Of a DNA stretch of 64,000 nucleotides, positions 43,470 to 44,434 are shown piece by piece; position 1 is the stretch's first letter; every line of letters begins with the position of its first letter. The position numbers were made by a program, and so were the translations under genes. Where the stretch lies: the NCBI RefSeq assembly GCF_900230225.1, contig NZ_OCNH01000006.1, positions 311,702-375,701 on the forward strand. Reading direction: 5' to 3'. This DNA comes from Spirosoma fluviale. Lineage in GTDB: Bacteria; Bacteroidota; Bacteroidia; Cytophagales; Spirosomataceae. The notes beneath the pieces were generated by a model. It ran no database searches and had not been told where the DNA came from. It was given only the letters and a program-made list of their open reading frames with translations.

Positions 43470-43499
43470 TTGTATTTCTAGAAAGTCGTCGTACATTTG
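43470..43499 (+). promoter_or_regulatory. Bacteroidota promoter of the intron-split tRNA
   Basis: TTG at 43470-43472, a 19-base spacer and TACATTTG at 43492-43499 match both Bacteroidota promoter elements. The tRNA begins 13 bases after the -7 box, a normal distance for a start of transcription just before a tRNA gene. Confidence 0.85.
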
Positions 43500-43511: not shown

Positions 43512-43891
43512 CGCGGGATGGAGCAGTTGGTAGCTCGTTGGGCTCAAGTTTACCGGTAAGACGGTAATGGCAATGTCAACATTAGTTTAATTAGGAAGCA
43601 CGTTTCTAATTAGCGAATTGAAAGATTCAAATGATTGACTTGATGGGCGGTACCGGGGGAAACGCCGGTATGTTAACTTGCCAAATTCGGGGAAGCCGGT
43701 AGTGCGGTAATCCCGAGCCAAGCCCGAAGGAAACTTCGGGAAGGTGTAGAGACTGAATGGTAGGCACCCTAACGCATCATGGCGAGGGCGAAGAGACAGT
43801 CCAGACTACAAATTCTGCCAACGCAGGAGCAACGAAAGTTGTAGTAGTAAGCATAACCCAAAGGTCGCTGGTTCGAGTCCAGCTCCCGCTA
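43512..43891 (+). tRNA. tRNA-fMet (CAT), split by a group I intron
   Basis: The 5' exon (43512-43544, bases 1-33) and 3' exon (43852-43891, bases 34-73) join to a 73-nt initiator tRNA. It has acceptor CGCGGGA/TCCCGCT, D-arm GAGCAGTTGGTAGCTC, anticodon stem TTGGG/CCCAA with loop CTCATAA, and T-arm CTGGTTCGAGTCCAG. The anticodon is CAT. Initiator features are the G-C base pairs of the anticodon stem and a mismatch at 1-72 (C-T). CCA is not encoded. The intron falls between U33 and C34. A Bacteroidota promoter and an intrinsic terminator flank the gene, so it looks functional if the intron splices. Confidence 0.9.
43545..43851 (+). ncRNA. Group I self-splicing intron in the tRNA-fMet anticodon loop
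   Basis: The 307-nt insert follows the group I rule: U before the 5' splice site and G (43851) as last base. The core elements read in order: P/Q region CGGTAATCCCGAGCCAAGCC, with TTCGGGG upstream pairing as P4; R region GGTGTAGAGACTGAATGG; S region GAAGAGACAGTCC, which pairs with GACT to form P7. A hairpin CCCGAAG-GAAA-CTTCGGG (about 43723-43740) has a GNRA loop. A P9-like stem CTACAA/TTGTAG (43806-43844) precedes the 3' end. A tentative P1 pairs the 5' exon with GGTAAGACG (43555-43563), placing U33 opposite G, but it contains two mismatches. No reading frame lies inside. The subgroup is probably the bacterial tRNA type (IC3), by resemblance. Confidence 0.88.
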
Positions 43892-43897
43892 CTAAGT

Positions 43898-43926
43898 AAA
43901 AGCCACTGAAATTCAGTGGCTTTTTT
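43898..43926 (+). terminator. Intrinsic terminator after tRNA-fMet
   Basis: AAAAGCCACTGAA and TTCAGTGGCTTTTTT form a tight stem with a very short loop and a T-run, seven bases past the tRNA 3' end. It separates the tRNA transcript from the nuclease gene. Confidence 0.9.
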
Positions 43927-43957: not shown

Positions 43958-44434
43958 ATGATAACGAAGCAAAAAGGAGACATTGCTGAGCAAGCTGTCA
44001 TTTTACAGGCTCTGCGCTTGGGCTGGGGTGTTTGCAAACCCGTTGGCGACAGGCTACCTTATGATTTAGTGTTTGATATAGATGGGTGTTTATTGAAAAT
44101 CCAGGTTAAAAGTGCCTGGTTTGATGATAGCCGAGGAAACTATGTCGTTGATAATCGACGCACCAAAACGAATAGACGTGCGATGGTGCGGGAAAATTAC
44201 TGCCTGACCGACTTCGATTTTGCGATTATTTATCTTGATACGTTGCACGTCTTTTACATAATGCCCGTTGCTGATTTTATTGGGTATGGCTCCGAAATTC
44301 ACCTTGTAGAAGCCGATAAGCGGCAACGTAAACCCAAATCCGCATCTTTTCGGGAAGCCTGGCAACTTTTACAGACGGCATTAGTGGCCGGAACATTACC
44401 TGATCAACGCAGTCCGACTCCGTCAATCCTGTAA
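43958..44434 (+). CDS. PD-(D/E)XK nuclease of the I-Ssp6803I homing-endonuclease type
   Basis: The 158-residue protein begins MITKQKGDIAEQAVILQALR and contains GDRLPYDLVFDIDG followed by LLKIQVKSAWFD. Glu11, Asp36, Gln49 and Lys51 form a PD-(D/E)XK active site, at the same residue numbers that I recall for I-Ssp6803I, the homing endonuclease of the Synechocystis tRNA-fMet intron. The rest (YVVDNRRTKTNRRAMVRENY, FDFAIIYLDTLHVFYIMPV) fits the same family. It lies outside the intron, 66 bases past the tRNA 3' end, behind the terminator. That is unusual. It would cut intronless tRNA-fMet genes and promote intron spread; this is inference. It is convergent with mreB. Confidence 0.85.
   Translation: MITKQKGDIAEQAVILQALRLGWGVCKPVGDRLPYDLVFDIDGCLLKIQVKSAWFDDSRGNYVVDNRRTKTNRRAMVRENYCLTDFDFAIIYLDTLHVFYIMPVADFIGYGSEIHLVEADKRQRKPKSASFREAWQLLQTALVAGTLPDQRSPTPSIL

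Follow-up and report, generated by a model that had tools for sequence, protein, structure and literature searches.

The window, the whole 64,000-nt stretch of the Spirosoma fluviale genome that we analysed, contains at 43512-43891 a tRNA-fMet gene with a group I intron; all of its features described here lie on the + strand. The 5' exon (43512..43544, position 1 to U33) and the 3' exon (43852..43891, C34 to A73, with CCA not encoded) were placed from the cloverleaf of the joined exons and from alignment with the intact gene of a relative (G026), and once joined they fold into tRNA-Met(CAU) bearing the marks of an initiator: the CAU anticodon, an unpaired C1/U72, and three G-C pairs in the anticodon stem. 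Bacteroidota promoters have the consensus -33 TTTG / -7 TAnnTTTG, which a candidate promoter read by eye upstream of the gene appears to resemble (43470..43499; TTG at 43470-43472 and TACATTTG at 43492-43499); at the equivalent place G026 carries TTG..TACTTTTG. The gene is followed by a terminator-like hairpin seen directly in the sequence (AAGCCACTGAAATTCAGTGGCTT, then a T run; 43900..43926), and similar hairpins stand 3' of the tRNA in other genomes of the genus. Beyond the hairpin, 66 nt past the tRNA, begins a gene for a 158-aa putative homing endonuclease of the I-Ssp6803I family (43958..44434), which the first-pass annotation had overlooked.

The 307-nt intron (43545..43851, ending in G) was delimited by its match to RF00028, by its exact absence from G026, and by covariation. 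The RF00028 match (43595-43844, +) covers model positions 1-253 of 253 at 56.6 bits (E 1.1e-11; cut-off 50), a margin of 6.6 bits that we count against the two-part cassette proposed below; the seven fMet introns that we found in the genus score between 55.0 and 63.3 bits, all above the cut-off. G026, the intact relative with the highest Era protein similarity (98.7%), aligns with both flanks of the insert, lacks exactly 307 nt, and has an identical tRNA body. Because the intron and the 3' exon each start with CA, three cut points are possible from the sequence alone; the cut between U33 and C34 is the one that ends the intron in G and places a U.G pair at the splice site, and in the genus introns that start with UA (G007, G010, G017, and G030) it is the sole cut that leaves a CAU anticodon. 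The 5' splice-site U.G pair expected of group I introns forms in 55/55 aligned introns, and the final base is G in 102/102 introns among the matches listed, a G that the search pattern itself required. Introns in tRNA genes are expected to belong to subgroup IC3.

The internal guide sequence, UGGGC (43644..43648), lies 100 nt beyond the 5' splice site, and relatives carry an invariant GGGC immediately 5' of the core. It pairs as P1 with G31, C32, and U33 and with the first two bases of the intron (G31-C, C32-G, U33.G, C+1-G, A+2-U), and as P10 with C34 and A35; in the window intron, U36 also pairs in P10 with A43643. In an alignment of 55 introns, picked from about 120 for diversity and size, the four inner P1 pairs form in every intron and the fifth in 40, and in P10 the pairs of C34, A35, and U36 form in 55/55, 39/55, and 38/55, respectively; the outer pairs missing from P1 (15 introns) and from P10 (16 and 17 introns) count against our best explanation. 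As the same guide bases serve P1 and P10, the first bases of the intron copy the start of the 3' exon. Candidate guides closer to the splice site (around 43574-43585) were rejected: mismatches remain there, and the relatives favour the GGGC beside the core. Between the P1 strands lie 97 nt of peripheral P1-loop domain (43547..43643), the place of the homing endonuclease gene in relatives.

The ribozyme core, P2 to P9.1 (43651..43842), was placed from the alignment of relatives, pairing, and covariation, and includes the P7 pseudoknot (43751-43754 with 43798-43801). The aligned introns (n=55) share 12 helices (9 in the intron and 3 in the tRNA), whose 56 pairs are formed at 97.3%, and 31/56 pairs change on both sides (24/41 in the intron and 7/15 in the tRNA); 0/500 shuffles matched the observed pairing or the count of both-side changes, and shifting the partner by one column lowers pairing to below 50%. 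The core helices P3 to P8 and the P3/P7 pseudoknot that define group I introns are present with covariation, P7 being 100% paired with both-side changes in 2/4 of its pairs, each in a single sequence. The first-pass annotation had described an initiator tRNA gene in which a group I intron obeying the U/G splice-site rule separates U33 from C34, with exons that fold into a proper tRNA-fMet; the significant RF00028 score, the empty site in G026, and the covariation bear out the split, the spliced fold and its initiator marks bear out the exons, and the rule holds in every aligned intron. Its P1, drawn with two mismatches, is replaced by the guide at 43644-43648 with its four perfect inner pairs.

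The product of 43958-44434 is predicted to be a PD-(D/E)XK homing endonuclease of the I-Ssp6803I type: it matches PF11645 (E 3.6e-48), and its sole match among solved structures is PDB 2ost_A (E 4.7e-60), which we take to be I-Ssp6803I. E11, D36, Q49, and K51, presumably the catalytic residues, are kept in 46/46 aligned relatives, and in both its sequence and these residues the protein agrees with the PF11645 family; the family's usual location, inside the intron that it mobilises, is not found here, where the gene lies outside the intron in a variant arrangement. The gene is under purifying selection in the two pairs of genomes that can be measured (dN/dS 0.03 for G000-G035 and 0.10 for G007-G010, where G000 is the genome of the window); silent sites are saturated in the other 13/15 pairs. 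A profile test of the 7 genus introns detected neither an endonuclease gene nor a remnant of one in their P1 loops; the same test found remnants in 5/84 introns of at most 480 nt (L034, L053, L078, L061, and L125), with 0 of 84 shuffled and 0 of 84 reversed controls at E 0.01.

Scanning a collection of species genomes with the intron-type 3' half gave at least 114 stretches, and the counts that follow are among the matches listed. A tRNA-fMet 5' half lies ~190 to 950 nt upstream in 103/114, 102 of them with the core motif; these 103 loci are assigned to 17 phylum names at NCBI, led by Cyanobacteriota (29), Bacteroidota (22), Nitrospirota (12), and Omnitrophota (11), although many are metagenome assemblies, so that individual phylum assignments may reflect misbinning. 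Related tRNA-fMet introns at the same site are present in scattered members of many phyla; within Spirosoma, carriers include S. sordidisoli and S. oryzae. Among the matches listed, the endonuclease gene lies within the intron in 23/103 loci, 3' of the tRNA and in its orientation at ~50 to 135 nt in 20/103, inside as pieces only in 4/103 (L026, L034, L053, and L078), and elsewhere in 1/103 (L071, Omnitrophota, where it stands upstream of the tRNA and antisense, a fourth arrangement); it was not seen in the stretch fetched for the remaining 55/103. An automated count among the matches listed (n=102) gave 22 inside, 17 downstream, 1 other, and 62 with none; it differs from the manual count in that L045 failed the core motif, L080 and L105 were dropped as repeats of G010 and G030, L048 is in two pieces, and gene pieces were ignored. 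A tree of 46 endonucleases (24 inside and 22 outside the intron), whose bootstrap had not settled, shows 8 changes in the place of the gene, at least 4 of them forced by well-supported branches.

Ten of the 11 listed loci without a reachable 5' half were put to Rfam (L127 was left out): L028, L077, and L128 score above the RF00028 cut-off, L038, L046, L050, L063, and L065 fall short of it, and the other two, L099 and L134, are the altered tRNA genes described below. Of further loci, L031, L042, L074, L095, and L103 pass, and L045 and L116 fail; for most of the 103, then, the core motif and the alignment, and not Rfam, are the grounds for group I identity. The fMet introns of L042, L063, L065, L077 (Acidobacteria), and L128 share a distinct 3' end, TCA(C/T)CGAAAGGTGAGTCAGATCG, and may represent a second lineage of introns there. 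Two stretches were rejected as introns, being tRNA-fMet genes with changes at U33 or beside it: L099 (a Lachnospiraceae MAG) is intronless with G at position 33, and L134 is intronless with a shortened anticodon loop; each may be a variant, a pseudogene, or an error.

We consider it probable, at roughly three chances in four, that a self-splicing intron and the endonuclease gene make up a two-part homing cassette that flanks the 3' exon, although the terminator-like hairpin ahead of the endonuclease gene counts against it. Traces of an earlier place of the gene were sought in the ends of the proteins. Genes inside the intron can read through the guide and the core (LISQWAAQKETYARTSVKFGEA, in L119, is an example of such a tail), and nine read-through tails, chosen for reaching the guide or core, served as the reference against which the tails of downstream proteins were compared. 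Strong ribozyme-core tails were found in 7/17 testable downstream proteins, with 0 to 5 of 2000 shuffles as good (L031, L035, L044, L096, L122, L123, and L124; all are cyanobacterial, and the genes of L122 and L124 are broken); L132, L092, and L076 have weak tails (57, 269, and 294 of 2000 shuffles, respectively), and the tails of a further 7/17 carry no ribozyme trace. In addition, DNA of the locus's own intron matches the gene end in L044, L096, and L123 (3/24 tested). As these seven cyanobacterial downstream copies keep a translated ribozyme core, the gene moved outward there and took a piece of the ribozyme with it.

We lean towards the broader reading that this is a homing intron that has come apart, with the endonuclease in the 3' flank in several bacterial groups and the pieces still moving jointly by conversion. 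For Spirosoma itself, it is possible but doubtful that the downstream endonuclease arrived free-standing, was never intronic in this lineage, and merely shares the target of the intron, which would be collaborative homing in the original sense. The five testable Spirosoma tails, in which no ribozyme remnant was found (592 to 1786 of 2000 shuffles as good), and the 7 genus introns, whose P1 loops are free of detectable gene remnants, would both agree with such an arrival; however, the seven cyanobacterial copies with their translated core, and the presence of the same family inside the intron in many phyla, argue against it.

Intron and endonuclease co-occur in the genus. Of 36 Spirosoma genomes, 7 match the intron-type 3' half pattern and 29 the intact-gene pattern (one mismatch permitted), without overlap, and the endonuclease gene is present in 6/7 intron genomes vs. 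0/29 intact ones, the exception being G017 (Fisher p 3.6e-6, a value that ignores kinship). In a tree of era, the gene adjoining the tRNA, which covers 35/36 genomes (G002 was left out because its locus holds too little era), intron presence changes at least 4 times, a single clade of intron-bearing genomes is rejected (p-AU 7e-7), and the intact G026 groups with the intron-bearing G035 (support 100/97). Comparing G030, which has intron and endonuclease, with the intact G022, we found that the intron and a ~540 nt endonuclease block are jointly present or absent, and that the flank past the endonuclease becomes collinear again at 604 nt in G030 vs. 68 nt in G022 (86.7%), and at 605 nt in G030 vs. 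65 nt in G020 (77.3%); the intron and endonuclease blocks therefore come and go as discrete pieces. Between G000 and G026 no downstream homology was found, so this pair demonstrates the intron alone. Among phylogenetically independent pairs, 3.7/4 show a joint change of intron and endonuclease and none a change in opposite directions (median p 0.125), the sign test being unable to reach significance with 4 pairs.

Across the phylum, the intron pattern matches 9/395 sampled Bacteroidota genomes (the S. fluviale genome and 8 of one other family), and the endonuclease is found in 2 at E 1e-10 or better (again S. fluviale, and G338, whose endonuclease gene sits within an fMet intron missed by the DNA pattern); with G338 added, the intron occurs in at least 10/395. 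The genus introns form one group beside those of Fibrella and another member of the Cytophagales (SH-aLRT 96; short search, 172 columns), a grouping that fits old residence with losses or exchange within the group, and intron losses could also account for the patchy distribution. Because the genus introns cluster with other Cytophagales, a recent import from cyanobacteria is unsupported. A phage or plasmid carrier was likewise rejected: 21 phage records gave partial matches of less than 60% identity, plasmids gave no matches, and no viral contig had the exact intron-type pattern.

We judge it unlikely that the intron is an ordinary resident, inherited vertically in the Cytophagales and occasionally lost, with the endonuclease a relic or passenger that has no present role in mobility. 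Its grouping beside Fibrella would suit a resident, as would the absence of the endonuclease from 1/7 intron genomes and the many loci elsewhere at which the gene went unseen; indeed, G017 and the 55/103 such loci indicate that the intron persists without the endonuclease. However, a relic would not be expected to keep its presumed catalytic residues throughout the 46 relatives or to be under purifying selection in both measurable pairs, the endonuclease without the intron was not found in the 36 genus and 395 phylum genomes, and close relatives would have required a separate recombination to lose both blocks precisely.

The first-pass annotation had pointed out that splicing would be essential if this were the only tRNA-fMet copy. 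Searching the 7.8 Mb genome (18 contigs, 99.98% complete) with a tRNA model recovered 40 other tRNA genes, two of them with a CAU anticodon and neither with the initiator stem, and in this search no intact tRNA-fMet copy was found beside the intron-bearing gene; tRNA-Ile(GAU) and tRNA-Ala(UGC) are absent from the 40, which shows the draft to be incomplete for tRNAs. An intact copy was also not found in G017, an intron-bearing genome assembled as a single contig, nor in any of the 7 intron genomes (0/7), such that in these members of the genus an essential initiator tRNA gene would rely on a ribozyme. The unspliced gene (43512-43891) received no ARAGORN call when the program was run without intron mode, and tRNA finders used in this way can miss such fMet genes. 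It is highly improbable that the gene is a decaying, non-splicing copy and that another initiator tRNA is in use, an idea to which the missing ARAGORN call and a draft that lacks at least two expected tRNAs lend something, but against which stand the missing intact copy in all 7 intron genomes, including the 99.98% complete genome and the single-contig G017, and the kept core pairings. Separately, ARAGORN reports in the same S. fluviale genome a tRNA of unknown type with a four-base 'anticodon', gaaa (L212; G000:C4:1655451-1655564).

On the two-part cassette, we infer the following course of events. The guide UGGGC would pair with G31-C32-U33 as P1, with U.G at the splice site, and a guanosine would attack after U33 to start splicing; U33 would then attack after the terminal G, with P10 keeping the anticodon in place through the same guide. 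Having removed itself from the precursor in this way, the intron would leave a normal initiator tRNA. The endonuclease, to judge from its family, should cleave tRNA-fMet genes that are intact, at the anticodon, and repair from this locus would carry over the intron together with the 3' exon, the terminator, and the endonuclease gene as a single tract; a resident intron would abolish the cut site and so protect the cell. The series seen at this one site (endonuclease inside, fossil inside, outside, and none) makes gain, relocation, and loss orderable and testable, and the fossil ribozyme in moved genes provides evidence on a direction that is usually only guessed.

Other intron-bearing tRNA genes were noticed along the way. 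Seven genus genomes have group I introns in tRNA-Leu(UAA) (L007, L010, L011, L013, L014, L015, and L017), at what we take to be the place known from cyanobacteria, and by eye the sequence before the core in L011, L014, and L015 resembles an HNH endonuclease. Group I introns are also present in a tRNA-Arg gene, probably UCU (L012 and L016), the long insert of L012 perhaps containing, again by eye, an endonuclease ORF on the opposite strand. The two top RF00028 scores, 93.1 bits (L001, in G051) and 86.7 bits (L002, in G015), belong to introns in a non-initiator tRNA with a CAU anticodon, inserted between U36 and A37 and with HNH-like sequence before the core by eye. G003, G007, G015, and G017 each have more than one intron-bearing tRNA gene.

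The kind of system is already known, from cyanobacterial tRNA-fMet introns and from collaborative homing in phages (PMC3984707, to the extent of its available text). The first-pass annotation knew of no such intron described in the Bacteroidota, and none was found in the literature searched, outside which lie key cyanobacterial papers; nor did that literature yield a description of the split, outward-moved arrangement, the 2001 endonuclease paper and a 1997 survey of tRNA introns in cyanobacteria being outside it. Group I introns in bacterial tRNA genes are also known from Nostoc (tRNA-fMet; available text of PMC5987646) and from Beggiatoa and Thiomargarita (tRNA-Leu and tRNA-Arg; available text of PMC4853749): with the first, the window shares the tRNA-fMet gene in a different host, and with the others, bacterial tRNA introns in different hosts, and the available text of the two papers mentions no endonuclease gene beside the tRNA. 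In Synechocystis sp. PCC 6803, according to the available text of PMC1995217, a 655-nt tRNA-fMet intron goes with the 150-aa I-Ssp6803I, and its insert is in the size class of the relatives with the endonuclease gene inside; the host gene and the endonuclease family are common to both, whereas in the window the endonuclease gene is outside the intron, beyond the tRNA and the terminator. In phages, introns and free-standing endonucleases engage in collaborative (trans) homing, one case being psbA by a title cited in the available part of PMC3984707, and the window has in common with them an ORF-less intron and a separate endonuclease gene with one target, but differs in that its host is a cellular tRNA gene. 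The direction of movement differs as well: the move in the cyanobacterial cases ran from the intron to the outside, whereas the phage model, as given in the same available text, proposes an inward step.
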